64,000 nucleotides of DNA, taken from positions 80,158 to 144,157 of the forward strand of contig JAJDBX010000046.1 of the NCBI GenBank assembly GCA_029261135.1, given 5' to 3'. A model generated the notes under the pieces. The model was not told where the DNA came from, searched no databases, and saw only the letters and a program-made list of their open reading frames with translations. This document shows, one piece after another, positions 28,845 to 36,993 of this stretch. The position numbers and the translations under genes are program-made. How positions within the stretch are numbered: the first letter of the stretch is position 1; each line of letters begins with the position of its first letter. This stretch comes from Nitrospirota bacterium. GTDB lineage: Bacteria; Nitrospirota; Nitrospiria; SBBL01; JAADHI01.

Positions 28845-28907
28845 AGAACAATTATGGCTTATTGACAGCAGATTAATAATCTGCTGTCAATAAGCCATAA
28901 TTGTTTT
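28845..28907. repeat. Long near-perfect palindrome (29-bp arms, 1-nt centre)
   Basis: Left arm AACAATTATGGCTTATTGAC continuing to GATTA (28847-28875), one central A, and the exact reverse complement (28877-28905); a G-U and an A-T pair extend it by two. It sits between the 5' end of the Fic pseudogene and the zinc-ribbon gene. Flanking sequence does not continue the symmetry, so it is not a simple fold-back assembly join. Confidence 0.9.
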
Positions 28908-29672: not shown

Positions 29673-32171
29673 TTAGCCATTATTTTCTGCTTCTTGAAGC
29701 ACTTCAATGAGCTGAGGGCCGTCAAACTGAAAAGGGTAGACAGGATCTTCGGCTTCCTTCCACGGATCTTTGTAAGCATCAACGGCCTCTTGCATTTTCG
29801 ATTCAAGATTCAAACAAATGCCCATATTATCGTCGATTAAAATTCCTTTGAGCAGGTCGATTCCGATGCGTTCAACAAATCCATAGGTTCGCTCTAAATA
29901 TTTTGCATGTTCCCGATAATATTCAAGAAAGCGACTCGTGTATTGAATCACGGCTTGAGGGTTGTCTACGGTACAGAGCAGATCTCCCTTTCGAATGGTG
30001 CTTCCTGCCGCACCACCGATGTAAATTTCCCATTGGCCCCCTTCGATCGCCACGACACCCACATCTTTAACCAAAGCTTCTGCACAATTTCGAGGGCAAC
30101 CCGTGACCGCCATTTTCACTTTATGAGGCGCTTCTACGCCTTGAAAACGCATTTCAATTTCTTTTGCCAGAGAGATCGAATCCCCCAGACCAAATCGGCA
30201 AAAATCAGTACCCACACAGCTTTTCACCGTACGAAAGGCCTTGGTATAGGCATGACCGCTCGGCAAACCGATGTCTTTCCAAATATTCGGGAGATCCTCT
30301 TTTTTGATTCCCAAGAGGTCGATCCGTTGTCCCCCGGTAAACTTCACCATTTTTGCTTTATATTTTACGGCGGCTTGCGCAATGCGAAGCAATTCTTCGG
30401 GCGTAGTTACGCCACCGATAATTCTGGGGACGACAGAAAAGGTCCCATCTTTTTGGATATTCGCATGCACGCGATCATTAATGAACCGTGCATCCCGTTC
30501 ATCTTCATATTCTTTCGGCCAAAGTGTTTTAAGCAGAGAGGCCAAGCCTGTCTTCGTGGTAGGATCTTCCTGTCCTCCCCCCAATGTCGCTAAGACCACA
30601 CTGACCGATTTTAAACCGTTGGAACGAATCTCACGAACAAGTTGTGATTTTTCAAAGGGAATACCTGGAACATAATAATGCTCACTGGCATCGTAGGATA
30701 CTTCTCCGACCACGGATTCTATGACCTGCGCAATAAATCCACGGCAGGAACCGCAACCCATGCCTGCCTTTGTTTTTGCCCCGACCGCAGCCACACTACT
30801 ACAATTTCCATTTTCTATGGCGGAAACAATCTCACCTTTACACACACCGTTACATCCACAAATTTGCGCCGAATCGGGTAAGTCTCCCGCATCCAGCAAT
30901 TTTGATCCATCAATAGAACCAAAAAGAATCTCTCCGCGATTTTCTGGGAGCTCTTTTTCGTTCATAAAAAGTTGCATGAGGCTGTCACTTAATCCAGTAT
31001 CCCCGAGTAAAATAGCCCCATGTATTTTATTTTCCCGTACAATCAGTTTTTTATAAATGCCCCGATTGGGATCACGATAAACAAGCACTTCGTCATCATT
31101 CTCATCTGTCTCTTTTTCTCCCATAGAGGCAAGATCAACCCCCATCACTTTTAACTTGGTGCCTGTTTTTGAACCGACATACCGTGTTTCCGAATTGACC
31201 CCGGTTAAAATATCGGCCATCACACCGACCTGCTGCCAGATGGGCTCAACCAGACCATAGGTTAAACCACGATGTTCAATACATTCTCCCACCGCAAAAA
31301 TATGAGGATCTTCTGTTCTCATTTGGTCATCACAAAGGATGCCTTTATTGGTTTTTAAACCACTCTTTTCAGCCACCTCAGTCATCGGAACAATGCCCGC
31401 ACTAATGACCACGATATCGGTCTCTAGAATTCCGCCATCCTTAAAAATGAGACGGGAAACCCGTCCATCCTTTGCGACAATTTGAGAAGTAAAGGTTTTC
31501 GTGAAAACGCGAAGTCCCATCGCACCCATCGCGCGTTCCAAGAGATTGGCCGATTCGAGATCCAGTTGAGAAGGCATGAGTTGGTCTGCGGCTTCGATGA
31601 CAGAAACTTCCAGGTCATGTGTCATGAGTCCCCGTGCGGCTTCAAGACCTAACAAGCCTCCACCAATAACCACTGCTTTCTGGCACCCTTTTGCATAATC
31701 TGCAATCTGATCACAGTCCTCTATCGTCCGGAATAAAAAAACACCAGGCAGTTCACTGCCTTTGATCCGTGGCACGAAGGGTCGTGAGCCTGTCGCAATA
31801 ATGAGCTCATCGTAAGGCACCTCAACAAAATGATCCCCATCAATCCCTTGAATCGCTTTATTGTAAGGAATGTCCTCGGCTGAGAGCTTCAGGGCAAAGA
31901 CTTTTTTCGACACTCTATCGATATGTGTCACCTTCATGCCGACATGCAGCGTAATATTATTTTCTTGATACCATTCCAGTGTATTTAGAAAAATCTCACT
32001 CGGACTTTGGGTCTGATTGAGGACATTGCTCAGCAAAATCCGGTTATAGTTTCCATAAGGCTCTGCGCCAAACATCAGAATATCGAAGGCCTCGGGGTCT
32101 CGTTTTAAAATTTCTTCCACCGCCCTCGCACCCGCCATCCCATTGCCGATAACAACAAGTCTTCTTTTCAC
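29673..32171 (-). CDS. nirB: Nitrite reductase [NAD(P)H] large subunit
   Basis: Cytoplasmic assimilatory-type nitrite reductase that takes nitrite to ammonium with NADH. Seen: N-terminal FAD/NAD(P)H-binding module (RRLVVIGNGMAG; second nucleotide fold AVVIGGGLLGLEAARG), a BFD-like [2Fe-2S] domain (CGCNGVCKGE...CGSCRG), and a siroheme/4Fe-4S module with CVGTDFCRFG and TGCPRNCAEA. The GTG at 32171 (MKRRLVVIG) is preceded by GGGAG and matches family starts better than the track's GTG at 32183. It follows nirD after 45 bp on the same strand. Confidence 0.95.
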   Translation of the reverse strand: MKRRLVVIGNGMAGARAVEEILKRDPEAFDILMFGAEPYGNYNRILLSNVLNQTQSPSEIFLNTLEWYQENNITLHVGMKVTHIDRVSKKVFALKLSAEDIPYNKAIQGIDGDHFVEVPYDELIIATGSRPFVPRIKGSELPGVFLFRTIEDCDQIADYAKGCQKAVVIGGGLLGLEAARGLMTHDLEVSVIEAADQLMPSQLDLESANLLERAMGAMGLRVFTKTFTSQIVAKDGRVSRLIFKDGGILETDIVVISAGIVPMTEVAEKSGLKTNKGILCDDQMRTEDPHIFAVGECIEHRGLTYGLVEPIWQQVGVMADILTGVNSETRYVGSKTGTKLKVMGVDLASMGEKETDENDDEVLVYRDPNRGIYKKLIVRENKIHGAILLGDTGLSDSLMQLFMNEKELPENRGEILFGSIDGSKLLDAGDLPDSAQICGCNGVCKGEIVSAIENGNCSSVAAVGAKTKAGMGCGSCRGFIAQVIESVVGEVSYDASEHYYVPGIPFEKSQLVREIRSNGLKSVSVVLATLGGGQEDPTTKTGLASLLKTLWPKEYEDERDARFINDRVHANIQKDGTFSVVPRIIGGVTTPEELLRIAQAAVKYKAKMVKFTGGQRIDLLGIKKEDLPNIWKDIGLPSGHAYTKAFRTVKSCVGTDFCRFGLGDSISLAKEIEMRFQGVEAPHKVKMAVTGCPRNCAEALVKDVGVVAIEGGQWEIYIGGAAGSTIRKGDLLCTVDNPQAVIQYTSRFLEYYREHAKYLERTYGFVERIGIDLLKGILIDDNMGICLNLESKMQEAVDAYKDPWKEAEDPVYPFQFDGPQLIEVLQEAENNG

Positions 32172-32216
32172 ATCCACTCCCACTTTTTCAAATAAACATG
32201 TCCTGCAATAAGGCGC

Positions 32217-32558
32217 TTATAACACCACTAACTCTGGTGAAGTCGTACTATAGTCAATATAAAGTTCCCCGTTTTCAATCCATGCCGGGAAAGAACGAAC
32301 CGATTCATTTCTATCACAGCCTTTTCCCGTACTCAGATCAAATTGATGCCCATGTAAAGGGCAAACCACCTTCCCTTCGCCAATGATTCCTTCGGCAAGA
32401 GGGCCATTTGCATGTGGACACTTATTTTCAATCGCGCTCACTTCTCCCGCTCTTGATCGAAAAATGGCGATCTCTTCTCCTTCCACAGAAAAACTAAGGC
32501 CTTGCCCCATTGGGACGGCTTCTATTGATCCTAATTTCACTTTAAAGGGTTTATTCAT
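32217..32558 (-). CDS. nirD: Nitrite reductase small subunit, Rieske type
   Basis: Rieske [2Fe-2S] partner of NirB. Seen: both cluster motifs, CPHANG and CPLHGHQFD, in a 113-residue protein of normal length. It is first in the nirD-nirB unit. A strong terminator hairpin and a sigma-54-type promoter lie just upstream (32579-32677), so expression probably needs terminator read-through. Confidence 0.92.
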   Translation of the reverse strand: MNKPFKVKLGSIEAVPMGQGLSFSVEGEEIAIFRSRAGEVSAIENKCPHANGPLAEGIIGEGKVVCPLHGHQFDLSTGKGCDRNESVRSFPAWIENGELYIDYSTTSPELVVL

Positions 32559-32578: not shown

Positions 32579-32619
32579 ATAAAAAAAGGCGCCTAGATCC
32601 ATTCGATCTAGGCGCCTTT
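32579..32619 (-). terminator. Leader terminator/attenuator in front of nirD
   Basis: On the minus strand AGGCGCCTAGATC-GAATG-GATCTAGGCGCCT (13-15 bp stem) is followed by seven T. It ends about 20 nt before the nirD ATG and downstream of a sigma-54-type promoter, so it lies inside the nirD leader. It could also end transcripts from the upstream nas genes. Confidence 0.9.
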
Positions 32620-32626
32620 GCCTAAA
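32607..32626 (-). promoter_or_regulatory. Candidate antiterminator hairpin in the nirD leader
   Basis: TTTAGGC-AAAGGC-GCCTAGA forms a 7-bp stem (one G-U) with a hexaloop carrying A at position 1 and G at position 4, the ANTAR-target signature. It uses the 5' arm of the terminator, so the two structures exclude each other. Inference from hand folding. Confidence 0.45.
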
Positions 32627-32661
32627 ATATCTGCTAGCGCTTCAACTCTCTTCTTAACTTA

Positions 32662-32677
32662 AGCAATCGACATACCA
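32662..32677 (-). promoter_or_regulatory. Sigma-54 (-24/-12) promoter of nirDB
   Basis: TGGTATG-TCGA-TTGCT on the minus strand: GG and GC separated by 10 nt as required for RpoN. Predicted start near 32651, giving a leader of about 90 nt. The same element precedes nasA. Confidence 0.72.
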
Positions 32678-32825
32678 AGAAGTGGAGTCAGGCACAAACA
32701 ATAAAAAACATAAATTTTTCAATATGTTAATGCACTATTCTGGGCTTCACCTCAAAACAAGTCAGCAAAACACCCAACATTATTGTCGTATACTGTACAA
32801 AAAGAGAGATGTATTTAAGGACAGC

Positions 32826-34682
32826 CTAATGGTCTTCGAAAAGAACACCCACTTGAGGCCGCTGGGCCAGTCCCGTTTTTCGTGCGAGATTTTCGAAGCT
32901 TTGGTTTCCCCAAAAGAAAGCACGGGGAACGGTCGTGGGAACAACCGAGACATAAAAGAGCGCACGGCCAATCACTTCATGCATAAGGGCAAGCAAGGTC
33001 ATCAAAATCCAGACCAGGAAGCCCGAATCGCTTACGGGAGGAAAAAAAGAAAACCAGAGGGCTAAAATAATGAGGACTATACTGCTGATCTTCCGGGCAC
33101 TTGTTGTTTTTCCAAAAACCTCTATCATCAACATCTGTGAGACCGCCGCCTCCTCTCCTTTTTTGTTCAAATAGCGAAGATGAGTATAAAGTGCCACGCG
33201 CTGAATAATTAATCCGAATAATAAAAAAAGCGCAAAAAGTGAAAGGAGAGGTCTTGTGTCACTGTCTTTCAAAAGACCCATTGTCGCGCTGACCAATCCA
33301 ATGATACTACTACCTAAGATCAATCCGCTCGAAAAAAAAGCCCCGCCAGAATGCCAATGATCCCAAAAAGGACGTGCCGGAATGCGATAACATCGGTACA
33401 TGCAATAAATCGCAAGTGGACCTAAAAGGGAGGCACTCCAGCCGAAAAGGGCAGGCAGTGGGTTTGAAATAAATTCCGGCAACCACGCGATGAGACCGGG
33501 GAAAATATTGACCACGCTATAGGCTGTGAGTAATCCATAAAATCCCCCCATCGCTGCAATTTCACGACTGACCCAAGAATGACGCAAGTTATTCATGGCG
33601 CGATAGAAATACTGAGGTTTCCCGAGGTGTAAAGTCGATAAAACCAGCGCGAAGGTTTGGAGGCCGATCAAGCTCAGCATTAAACCTGCCATCGTGACAG
33701 GATGGCTTTGAAATGAAAATAGAGAAGCGGCCGGCTCACGCCAAAGTGGGAACAGAAAAATAAAAAGAAAGGCGCCCACAACAAATTGAGAAATGAGTGT
33801 GAACAAAACAAGCGGATCTTCCCGCGACCGAAGCTTGTTCAAACCCCAAGTAATCTTTGAAGGATTCCCTTTTGCTTTGATTTTATAGGAGGATTGAGAC
33901 ACATCCATTTTTCCATCCGAATAATTCTCTTTGGAATTCTCTTTATGATAAGAGAGTGGAACATCATCTATTCTGTGGAATTCGTCTGGAAGACTTTGAT
34001 TAAGCTGAAATCGAATATTGGGCCTGGAGATGCTCGGGTCGGTAAAAGAAGGGATAGTCAGATCTGCTGTTTGCTGTTTTTGGGGAATCTCATCAATAAC
34101 ACCGAAATCCAGTGCGTTGCCAAGACAGGCATCCACACAGGCGGGCTGTAAACCGACTTCGAGCCGGTCAATACACATATTACATTTCTGGACTTGTCCT
34201 TTTTCTGTATCGAGCTGAGGCGCATTGTAGGGACAAACCCATGTACAATATCCACACCCAAAACAGATTTCTGGATCTTGGAGCACAGCGCCGTATTCTA
34301 AATATTTTGTATAGGCCCGTGTCGGACAGCCTTTCAGACAGACGGGATCTTCGCAGTGATTGCAGGCCATCGAAATATTGATGCGCGTGACATCAGGGTA
34401 GGTGCCGCCCTCAATGGCACCCACACGACGGTAGGCCATGTGAGGTGCCAGATCATTTTTTTCAGAACAGGCCGATTCACAGGCATGACAGGCGATACAG
34501 TTGTCTGCATTAAAGTGAAATCCATGTTGTTTGTATCGATTGGGATTTTTATGGTTATTTGAGCCACAAGAATGCGAATTGATCTCCAATGGCATGTCCG
34601 CCAAATTGGGGTAAAGGACATCCAGCGCGATCTCTGTCCCGTGCTGGCTTTGTTGAGGAATTTCAGTATTATTCTCATTCAT
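32826..34682 (-). CDS. Fused Fe-S electron-transfer subunit and DmsC-like membrane anchor
   Basis: Residues 1 to about 210 are a DmsB-type protein with four cysteine clusters (CIACHACESAC, CEDPVCLKGC, CFGCGYCTWVC, and CNMC...CVDAC). After a linker of about 70 residues comes a DmsC-type anchor with about eight membrane segments (starting LFTLISQFVVGAFLFIF, with LSTLHLGKPQYFYRAMNNL). These are normally two genes; here they are one 618-residue ORF. It follows the nitrate reductase catalytic gene by 18 bp, so quinol-derived electrons would reach that subunit through it. Topology and partner are inferred. Confidence 0.88.
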   Translation of the reverse strand: MNENNTEIPQQSQHGTEIALDVLYPNLADMPLEINSHSCGSNNHKNPNRYKQHGFHFNADNCIACHACESACSEKNDLAPHMAYRRVGAIEGGTYPDVTRINISMACNHCEDPVCLKGCPTRAYTKYLEYGAVLQDPEICFGCGYCTWVCPYNAPQLDTEKGQVQKCNMCIDRLEVGLQPACVDACLGNALDFGVIDEIPQKQQTADLTIPSFTDPSISRPNIRFQLNQSLPDEFHRIDDVPLSYHKENSKENYSDGKMDVSQSSYKIKAKGNPSKITWGLNKLRSREDPLVLFTLISQFVVGAFLFIFLFPLWREPAASLFSFQSHPVTMAGLMLSLIGLQTFALVLSTLHLGKPQYFYRAMNNLRHSWVSREIAAMGGFYGLLTAYSVVNIFPGLIAWLPEFISNPLPALFGWSASLLGPLAIYCMYRCYRIPARPFWDHWHSGGAFFSSGLILGSSIIGLVSATMGLLKDSDTRPLLSLFALFLLFGLIIQRVALYTHLRYLNKKGEEAAVSQMLMIEVFGKTTSARKISSIVLIILALWFSFFPPVSDSGFLVWILMTLLALMHEVIGRALFYVSVVPTTVPRAFFWGNQSFENLARKTGLAQRPQVGVLFEDH

Positions 34683-34700
34683 ATGCGTTTGTTTCCCTTT

Positions 34701-36881
34701 TTAATAGCTCCGTAATTCCAGAAGACTTTTTTCTGCTTCATCTTGATCCATAAGTTTATCGATGCGAACGGTCGATTGTTTATAGGCCGGTTGCCTTGAA
34801 TAGGGGTCGAGTTCCCCTTTCACAAGCCGATTGACACAGTTGTAATAGTGCATCGGGATAAAAATAGCGTCCTCCGAGACCCTTTCCGTGAGCTGGGCCA
34901 GCACAATTGCTGATGATCGTCGGGAGATCACACGGACAAACTCCATCGCCTGAATACCCAATTTTTTTGCAGTTTTGGGATTAATCTCCATAAAAGGCGT
35001 TGGGCTGAATTTATTCAGATTTCCGATTTTTCCAGTTTTGGTTCGTGTATGCCAATGCTCAACGAGACGCCCGGTATTGAGCCAAAAGGGGTAATCTTCG
35101 TCAGGCATTTCATAATTTTCAACGAAAGGGAGAGGGATGAGTTTCGCTTTGCCATCCGGGAATTGAAATACACCATCAGCATAAATCCGTTGACTCCCGT
35201 TAATATTTTGTTCATTGCAAGGCCATTGAATGCCACGGTTTTTTTCGATTTTTTCGTAGCTCATTCCGGAATAATCACAAAGACGCCCTTTAGAAACGCT
35301 TCGCATTTCATCAAAAACCTCGGCTGGCGATTCCGCAAAGGTCATTCCTTTTGCCCGATCAAAACGCTTGGCTAGTTCAATAAAAATCCATAGATCCGGT
35401 TTCGCATCCCCTGGAGGTTCCACCACTTTTCGAACCACGTTCACACGCCGTTCTGTATTAGTAAAAACCCCTGTTTTTTCACCCCAAAGGGCAGCAGGAA
35501 GATACACATGGGCTGATTCCACCGTTTCAACATTGGCATAGGCATCTTGGACAACGAGAAATTCAAGTTGATTCAGTATTTTTCTAATCTTTGTGCTGTC
35601 GGGCATCGAAGTCATCGGATTGGTTCCAATCAGCCAAAGTCCTTTGATTTCACCCCGCTCAATGGCTGGGAAAATATCCGTCTCAGTCAACCCCCGTTTT
35701 TCAGGAAAGTGATGTGCTTCGACCCCCCAAAACTGAGAAGTAAAAGCGCGATCTTCTGCATTTTCGAGTAAACGATATCCAGGTAATCCCGAACAGGAAG
35801 AGAATTCTCGTGTGCCCATGGCATTGCACTGACCTGTAATCGAAAGGGACGTACCCCCGGGTTTACCGATATTTCCTGTGATTAAATTTAAATTATTAAT
35901 TGCGACGACACCGTCGGAGCCATGGGTCGACTGGTTAATGCCCATGGTCCAAATGGTCATGGCCGCGCCTGCATCGCCATAAATTCGCGCGACTTTCCGA
36001 ATCATCTTAGCGGAAATACCACAAACTTTTTCAGCCATTTCCGGGCTGTATTGGGCCACCAATGACCCAAATGCTTCGAATCCATTTGTGTGGAATTTAA
36101 TATAGTCTTGATCTGCCAAGCCTTCTTCTAAGATAACGTGAGCCATTGCATTGAGCAGAACCAAGTCTGTCCCAGGCTTGATTGGCAGGTGAATATCGGC
36201 CATTTGTGCAAACATCGTGACTCTGGGATCCACCACAATGATAGGAAAACGACGACGATCGTACGCTTCTTTTAAACGATAATAAATAATCGGGTGTTGT
36301 TCCGGTAAATTCGATCCGATAGCAAGCAGACATCCCGTATGCTCAAAATCATCATAACACCCTGGCGGGCCGTCACTGCCAAACGACCTCTTATAACCTG
36401 AGACAGCCGAAGCCATACAAAGGGTCGTATTCCCGTCATAGTTATTTGTTCGAATAACACCCCGAGCGAGCTTACCCAAGGTATAAAATTCTTCTGTATA
36501 GATCTGTCCTGTCGAAACAATGGCAAAGCTGTCGCGTCCGTATAAGGCTTGGATACGACCAATCTCACTGGCTGTTCTATTTAGGGCCTCATCCCAAGTG
36601 GTCTCGGTGAAAAGGTCTGGACGATCTTTACGAAGCAGTGGTGTTGTACCGCGATTCTCTGATTCAAAAACCTCATATTCATAGATCCCTTTCAAACAAA
36701 GCTTCCCTCGATTAACATCGGCATCAGCCACCCCCCGGGCGGTGACGGCCTTACCAGCCTGATTGACTCCAACTTCTATCGAGCAGCCTGTCGAGCAATA
36801 GCCACAGGTCGTATAAACCCATTTCTCAACGGGTTTTACCGGAAGTTGAATCTCATTTTTAAACCGTCGTCCAAATAACAT
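34701..36881 (-). CDS. Assimilatory-type nitrate reductase catalytic subunit (NarB/NasA-like)
   Basis: Molybdopterin oxidoreductase of the DMSO-reductase superfamily, expected to reduce nitrate to nitrite. Seen: 4Fe-4S site CGYCSTGCSIEV with its distant fourth cysteine (KLCLKG), the TTLCMASAV segment with the likely molybdenum-ligand cysteine, GSNLPEQHP and GTNPMTSMPD cofactor loops, and the C-terminal NTGRLVEHWHTRTKTG motif typical of NarB/NasA. No twin-arginine signal, so cytoplasmic. 726 residues matches NarB. Another family substrate cannot be excluded, but nirBD nearby supports nitrate. The ATG has GGTGA 6 nt upstream and a terminator 13 nt upstream. Confidence 0.88.
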   Translation of the reverse strand: MLFGRRFKNEIQLPVKPVEKWVYTTCGYCSTGCSIEVGVNQAGKAVTARGVADADVNRGKLCLKGIYEYEVFESENRGTTPLLRKDRPDLFTETTWDEALNRTASEIGRIQALYGRDSFAIVSTGQIYTEEFYTLGKLARGVIRTNNYDGNTTLCMASAVSGYKRSFGSDGPPGCYDDFEHTGCLLAIGSNLPEQHPIIYYRLKEAYDRRRFPIIVVDPRVTMFAQMADIHLPIKPGTDLVLLNAMAHVILEEGLADQDYIKFHTNGFEAFGSLVAQYSPEMAEKVCGISAKMIRKVARIYGDAGAAMTIWTMGINQSTHGSDGVVAINNLNLITGNIGKPGGTSLSITGQCNAMGTREFSSCSGLPGYRLLENAEDRAFTSQFWGVEAHHFPEKRGLTETDIFPAIERGEIKGLWLIGTNPMTSMPDSTKIRKILNQLEFLVVQDAYANVETVESAHVYLPAALWGEKTGVFTNTERRVNVVRKVVEPPGDAKPDLWIFIELAKRFDRAKGMTFAESPAEVFDEMRSVSKGRLCDYSGMSYEKIEKNRGIQWPCNEQNINGSQRIYADGVFQFPDGKAKLIPLPFVENYEMPDEDYPFWLNTGRLVEHWHTRTKTGKIGNLNKFSPTPFMEINPKTAKKLGIQAMEFVRVISRRSSAIVLAQLTERVSEDAIFIPMHYYNCVNRLVKGELDPYSRQPAYKQSTVRIDKLMDQDEAEKSLLELRSY

Positions 36882-36892
36882 ATGTACTCACC

Positions 36893-36930
36893 CATAAAAA
36901 AAGCGTCTAGACTAAAAAAATCTAGGCGCC
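36893..36930 (-). terminator. Leader terminator/attenuator in front of the nitrate reductase gene
   Basis: Minus strand GCGCCTAGA / TCTAGACGC stem (one mismatch) followed by seven T, ending about 13 nt before the ATG. It is more than 300 bp from the end of the upstream PilZ gene and inside the leader, so control of the downstream gene is the natural reading. Confidence 0.83.
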
Positions 36931-36936
36931 TTCGCC

Positions 36937-36964
36937 ATTCAACCCACATCCTTGTGTCTTGAAT
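36937..36964 (-). promoter_or_regulatory. Candidate ANTAR-type hairpin in the nitrate reductase leader
   Basis: ATTCAA-GA-CAC-[AAGGAT]-GTG-GG-TTGAAT: six base pairs, a 2x2 internal loop, three base pairs and a hexaloop with A1 and G4. It begins about 3 nt after the predicted start site and is followed directly by a GGC[GAAGGC]GCC element that overlaps the terminator. Hand-folded; function inferred. Confidence 0.5.
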
Positions 36965-36977
36965 ACTCTCCTAGTTA

Positions 36978-36993
36978 AGCAATCCATATGCCT
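36978..36993 (-). promoter_or_regulatory. Sigma-54 (-24/-12) promoter of the nitrate reductase operon
   Basis: AGGCATA-TGGA-TTGCT on the minus strand with exact GG-N10-GC spacing. Predicted start near 36967. The core GATTGCTTAA is identical to the nirD promoter. Confidence 0.72.

Follow-up and report, generated by a model that had tools for sequence, protein, structure and literature searches.

Two predicted ANTAR-type attenuators before nitrate and nitrite reductase genes of a Nitrospirota bacterium

Two leaders and the genes behind them

The window, by which we mean the whole 64,000-nt stretch of DNA analysed here, belongs to a genome of the Nitrospirota, class Nitrospiria, related to Candidatus Manganitrophaceae. 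Its minus strand carries a nasA-type molybdopterin oxidoreductase gene (34701..36881, ATG at 36881), probably encoding the catalytic subunit of a nitrate reductase, and, in the same unit, a gene for a fused Fe-S and DmsC-like membrane subunit (32826..34682). On the same strand lie nirD (32217..32558, ATG at 32558), for the Rieske-type small subunit of nitrite reductase, and nirB (29673..32183), for the NADH nitrite reductase large subunit. NirB scored 834 bits against TIGR02374 (cut-off 578) and NirD 67.6 bits against TIGR02378 (cut-off 74.65). Because the nasA-type protein scores too low to pass the NCBIfam cut-off for formate dehydrogenase (Fdh-alpha) or that for nitrate reductase (NasC), its substrate was inferred from the nirD-nirB neighbors, and "NasA" is used as a label. 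The fusion of an Fe-S protein with a DmsC-like membrane anchor (32826-34682) beside a nitrate-reductase-like gene is unusual in an assimilatory enzyme. Elsewhere in the window (28853-28899), an inverted repeat whose 20-bp arms match perfectly around a loop of 3-7 nt was seen on both strands.

A sequence-only reading of this DNA had proposed that nasA and nirD are each preceded by a leader ending in an intrinsic terminator, with hexaloop hairpins of the ANTAR type, and that nitrate or nitrite induces both genes by antitermination. Reading the minus strand confirmed all of the reported strings, the leader layout and the position of both terminators just before the start codons. The nasA-type leader begins with a sigma54-type promoter element of the form GG-N10-GC, GGcatatggattGC (36979..36992, minus strand), from which the start site is predicted. 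It continues with the hairpin P1, ATTCAAGACAC[AAGGAT]GTGGGTTGAAT (36937..36964), the hairpin P2, GGC[GAAGGC]GCC (36925..36936), and a terminator with a U tract (36896..36933), which lies 14 nt ahead of the start codon and whose 5' arm is overlapped by P2. Two successive hexaloop hairpins are therefore present, with G4 in both loops, A1 in P1 and G1 in P2. The nirD leader, also on the minus strand, has its own sigma54-type element, GGtatgtcgattGC (32663..32676), a single hexaloop hairpin P2 with A1/G4, TTTAGGC[AAAGGC]GCCTAGA (32607..32626), which is an alternative to the terminator, and a terminator of 15 pairs with a U tract (32581..32619), 22 nt ahead of nirD. The weak points that the reading had itself named, the missing P1 in the nirD leader and G1 in the nasA P2 loop, are real. 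A GG-N10-GC box occupies a comparable position in 20 of the 22 leaders of the order, and the host genome has an rpoN gene, which fits the sigma54-type boxes.

Both leaders are more stable than shuffled sequences (z -3.4 to -4.5), and in both P2 overlaps bases of the intrinsic terminator. The calculated energies of terminator and P2 are -14.8 and -2.8 kcal/mol in the nasA-type leader and -27.3 and -7.6 kcal/mol in the nirD leader; the terminators are thus stronger than the competing hairpins, so that termination would be the default. The nasA P1 has an energy of -7.6 kcal/mol as a hexaloop, or -9.5 kcal/mol with A1 paired to U6.

P1 of the nasA-type leader is found in all five members of the genus (the window species and four sister species), where A1/G4 is invariant and the stems vary: GAAGCAC[AAGGAA]GTGTTTC, GAAACAC[AAGGAC]GTGTTTC, CAAAACAC[AATGTC]GTGTTTTG and AAAACAC[AGCGTC]GTGTTTT in the four sisters. 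Two of the findings that, by the sequence-only reading, would have refuted its proposal are thus not borne out: loop positions 1 and 4 are conserved in relatives, and the genome does have an ANTAR gene (below). Within P2, AAGGCGCC is retained in three of the four sister nasA-type leaders; loop position 1 of P2 is G or T in sister species. The terminator is retained in sister species with a changed stem sequence; in one sister, G004, P2 is altered (GAACTG) and no clear terminator was seen by eye.

Leader models and a single ANTAR regulator

Related leaders, sought with covariance models only, turned up across the class. Model R1, comprising P2 and the terminator without P1, retrieved leaders from further genera of the order, and the strongest hexaloop upstream of these had G4 in 5/5 and A1 in 4/5 independent groups with a clear P1. 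For the 11 two-hairpin leaders of the order, unforced RNAalifold folding yielded P1 and P2, and the alignment contained 14 two-sided changes, compared with 4.6 in shuffled alignments (0/500 shuffles reached 14). The closing pairs of P1, AC/GU, are invariant across the 11 leaders; closing pairs of the same letters are conserved in eut leaders (Ramesh et al., PMC3369931). Model R2, representing the two-hairpin form, retrieved further leaders. In the window it matched the nasA-type leader with an E value of 3.5e-12, the leader's own sequence being in the R2 seed, and the nirD leader, with P1 missing, with an E value of 8e-4. R2 matches inside coding sequence (L183-L187 and L285) were rejected, as was the R1 match at G000:C53:64467, a two-way terminator without P2. 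The bare pattern GGCNAAGGCGCC was useless as a leader finder in 58 genomes, where control counts were similar, and Rfam scans of the leaders gave no match at gathering scores and only weak, chance-like matches (E up to 10).

A blind scan of 1.37 Mb of fetched sequence found 139 terminators, 42 of them with an overlapping hexaloop hairpin. A1 together with G4 occurred in 23 of these 42, against an expectation of about 2.6 if the chance is 1 in 16; the 23 are not independent, since they consist mostly of orthologous leaders and of leaders next to ANTAR genes. In Nitrospira, Ca. N. defluvii among them, the same scan revealed leaders adjoining the ANTAR gene.

The host genome contains one ANTAR gene (C41:69405-70667, about 9.5 kb before the window start). 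It encodes a 420-residue GAF-GAF-ANTAR protein, and not a NasR or NasT, the examples for which the sequence-only reading had suggested a search; its ANTAR domain scores 79.6 bits (Pfam cut-off 27.3). Pfam detected neither a NIT domain nor a receiver domain in the protein, which has two N-terminal GAF domains instead, and this rules out a regulator of the NasR type or of the NasT type, NasT being a receiver-ANTAR protein. Among the named entries of the genome collection, Nitrospirota and Candidatus Manganitrophaceae MAGs are the nearest relatives, followed by Nitrospira. In an alignment with EutV, whose contact-residue roles we took from Walshe et al. (PMC8934654), 7 of the 11 RNA-contact residues are identical (R142, K143, K149, E160, M172, N173 and R175), 2 are conservatively replaced (K147 by R, Y164 by F) and 2 differ (R168 and R177).

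The occurrence of leaders follows that of the ANTAR gene. In the order, a leader was found in 16/16 genomes with an ANTAR gene and in 0/2 without; in family f6, in 13/13 with and 0/9 without, all nine of the latter being 99% complete; and within one genus, in 4/4 with as against 0/9 without. Counting arrangements, the f6 pattern would arise about once in 497,000, ignoring relatedness. The Nitrospira leaders next to the ANTAR gene served to build model R3. Since most of the R3 seed came from loci adjoining ANTAR genes, the presences it counts are in part a matter of design; the absences are not, and they are therefore the independent part of this evidence. In Nitrospira and in family f10, leaders adjoin the ANTAR gene itself. 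One exception is G020 (85% complete), in which a leader (L307, G020:C96:10638-10686) precedes a glutamine-synthetase-like gene and no ANTAR gene was found.

Taken together, the single ANTAR gene, the A1/G4 hexaloops, the compensatory stems and the co-occurrence of leader and ANTAR gene strongly support antitermination by an ANTAR protein. We consider it very probable, on these comparisons, that both leaders are attenuators under the sole GAF-GAF-ANTAR regulator, the nasA-type leader via P1-P2 and the nirD leader via P2 alone. Transcription would begin at the sigma54-type promoters, at the predicted start sites, and would by default halt at the terminator that immediately precedes the gene. An active regulator would use its ANTAR domain to bind the hexaloop hairpins, at the usual P1-P2 pair in the nasA-type leader and at the lone P2 in the nirD leader, and hold P2, thereby blocking the terminator; RNA polymerase would then enter the nitrate-reductase unit and nirDB.

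The predicted regulon and its signal

The genes headed by such leaders reach well beyond nitrate and nitrite reduction. They include genes for molybdopterin oxidoreductase and PII-like proteins, with a NarK-type transporter and nitrite/sulfite reductase fusions; porin-Amt-PII, behind tandem leaders; formamidase; and an NMT1-like ABC binding protein with a CBS protein. In family f10, leaders before PII and a GAF-sigma54 activator adjoin the ANTAR gene. The Nitrospira leaders precede urea transport and urease genes, NAD synthase-Amt-PII, and NirC with cyanase, and glutamine synthetase (glnA) leaders occur in further families. In one locus of the Nitrospira family (L321 and L322, G049:C6:526500-556500), the ANTAR gene is part of a cluster in which leaders head the porin-urea transport, NAD synthase-Amt-PII and NirC-cyanase genes. 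The host genome has a third ANTAR-type leader (L328, G000:C10:117480-117537), before the gene for a sigma54 activator of 332 residues that lacks a sensor domain, and orthologous leaders occur in the four sister species and in G007. As a guess, this activator could act on the sigma54-type promoters of the leaders.

This breadth suggests a general nitrogen-status signal, which is probably what the regulator reads, rather than nitrate or nitrite specifically. That nitrate or nitrite is the direct signal of the antitermination, as for NasR and NasT, would accord with the nitrate- and nitrite-reduction genes behind the window leaders and with the finding that RNA binding by NasR depends on nitrate or nitrite (PMC7496416). 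However, the regulator lacks a NIT or receiver domain, leaders of its orthologs precede amt, PII, urea transport, cyanase, formamidase and glnA genes, and its GAF1 domain is closest to the GAF domain of PtsP/EINtr, in which glutamine binding is needed for control (PMC4848567). We therefore regard a direct nitrate or nitrite signal as unlikely. Glutamine binding by the GAF-GAF-ANTAR protein may be inferred by analogy, and a ligand resembling glutamine or 2-oxoglutarate, bound by the GAF domains, would be likelier than nitrate. Of the earlier proposal of nitrate or nitrite induction by antitermination, the antitermination is strongly supported; the nitrate or nitrite signal is less so, given the GAF-GAF sensor and the leaders before ammonium, urea, cyanate, formamide and glutamine-synthetase genes.

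Leaders with one hexaloop, and known ANTAR systems

The nirD leader is the less typical of the two in the window. No P1 with G4 was found within reach of its P2 in the window species (G000) or in G001, and in G003 the sole P1 candidate has T1 and overlaps the promoter. The leader occurs in two of the four sister species (G001 and G003); in the other two, nirD directly follows the upstream gene. It could be a constitutive internal terminator, that is, a polarity element separating the reductase genes from nirDB, with a hexaloop arising from the GGCGCC palindrome, while the nasA-type leader is an ANTAR attenuator. The missing P1, the very strong terminator (-27.3 kcal/mol), the lack of the leader in 2/5 species and the tendency of GGCGCC alone to form a small hairpin are in keeping with such an element. 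On the other hand, TTTTAGGCAAAGGCGCCT of the nirD leader is the same in the window species, G001 and G003, amid diverged upstream sequence, and the terminator stem covaries between species. The part TTTTAGGC, 5' of the terminator and dispensable for termination, is identical in the three species; being conserved yet outside the terminator, it points to the alternative hairpin. Moreover, the leader has its own sigma54 box and an A1/G4 loop, and one-hexaloop leaders elsewhere precede ANTAR-associated genes (moco_G007, the sigma54-activator leaders and glnA in G028). On balance, a mere polarity element before nirD appears quite improbable.

That the attenuators respond instead to a small molecule as riboswitches, to translation of a leader peptide or to a different RNA-binding protein is highly implausible: the Rfam scan leaves room for an undescribed RNA family, but the roughly 20-30 nt before P2 are too short for a long aptamer, the leaders gave no Rfam match, what is conserved in them is characteristic of ANTAR targets, and leader presence tracks the ANTAR gene within family and genus.

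Compared with known ANTAR targets, the nirD leader agrees only with the minimal motif of one hexaloop described in PMC8934654 and not with the two-hexaloop type. It has counterparts: the usual hexaloop P1 was not seen in the nirD leader of the three species, moco_G007, nasA_G006, the sigma54-activator leaders or glnA of G028. The P2 loop has A1/G4 in the nirD leader, moco_G007 and nasA_G006, and G1/G4 in the sigma54-activator leaders of the five genus members. EutV requires both hairpins in vivo (PMC3369931) and binds each hexaloop singly, the role of single hexaloops having been left open (PMC8934654); the affinity of NasR for one hairpin is about 12-fold weaker (PMC7496416). We suggest tentatively, as a reading with a little under an even chance of being right, that nirD and similar leaders are working single-hexaloop antiterminators for the GAF-GAF-ANTAR protein, without an upstream recruiting hairpin and contrary to the EutV requirement. 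The one-hexaloop leaders may also be explained by a P1 that has degenerated, by transcription from a different start site or by simple termination. These leaders would be natural test cases for the single-hexaloop role left open in 2022 (PMC8934654).

Among known systems, the NasR/nasF leader of Klebsiella oxytoca shares with the present one a one-component ANTAR regulator, a two-hexaloop leader overlapping a terminator and nitrate-assimilation genes (PMC7496416); unlike NasR with its NIT sensor, the regulator here has two GAF domains, and its predicted targets include a one-hexaloop nirD leader and many more nitrogen genes. The eut leaders of Enterococcus faecalis likewise have A1/G4 hexaloops, AC/GU closing pairs and a P2 that is exclusive with the terminator (PMC3369931, PMC8934654), whereas EutV is a phosphorylated response regulator that needs both hexaloops and a linker of 5-12 nt; here the linker is about 3-10 nt and P1 is sometimes missing. 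In the nasA leaders, P1 and P2 are only about 4 nt apart, less than the range that works for EutV; as these limits are known for EutV only, the short linker is a difference from EutV and not a proof of non-membership. NasS-NasT of Paracoccus and Bradyrhizobium also controls nitrate-reduction genes by ANTAR antitermination (PMC3795266, PMC5424462, PMC6759348), but NasT is held by the sensor NasS, and the regulator here has no receiver domain. Ramesh et al. (2012) predicted comparable nitrogen regulons with PII, ammonium and urea transporters, glutamine synthetase and nitrite reductase; its main text makes no mention of Nitrospirota, and some leaders may stand in the supplementary tables (PMC3369931). 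The mechanism is thus known, while the GAF-GAF-ANTAR regulator, the class-wide nitrogen regulon and the one-hexaloop leaders appear to be undescribed in the literature searched, with possible overlap in earlier survey tables. In a 2020 paper, NasR and PAL are the sole one-component ANTAR proteins listed as characterised (PMC7496416), so a sensor of two GAF domains would be of a new type.

The predicted RNA-level regulon of one GAF-GAF-ANTAR protein would span much of nitrogen assimilation in the Nitrospiria, including Nitrospira, with its central nitrite oxidisers and complete ammonia oxidisers. Some leaders are doubled: tandem pairs about 105-110 nt apart ahead of one transcription unit were seen at L145, L133 and L134, and at L321 near 529401-529560. 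A two-hexaloop leader (L193, G011:C7:287870-287911) also precedes circularly permuted ATP-grasp and Alpha-E genes.
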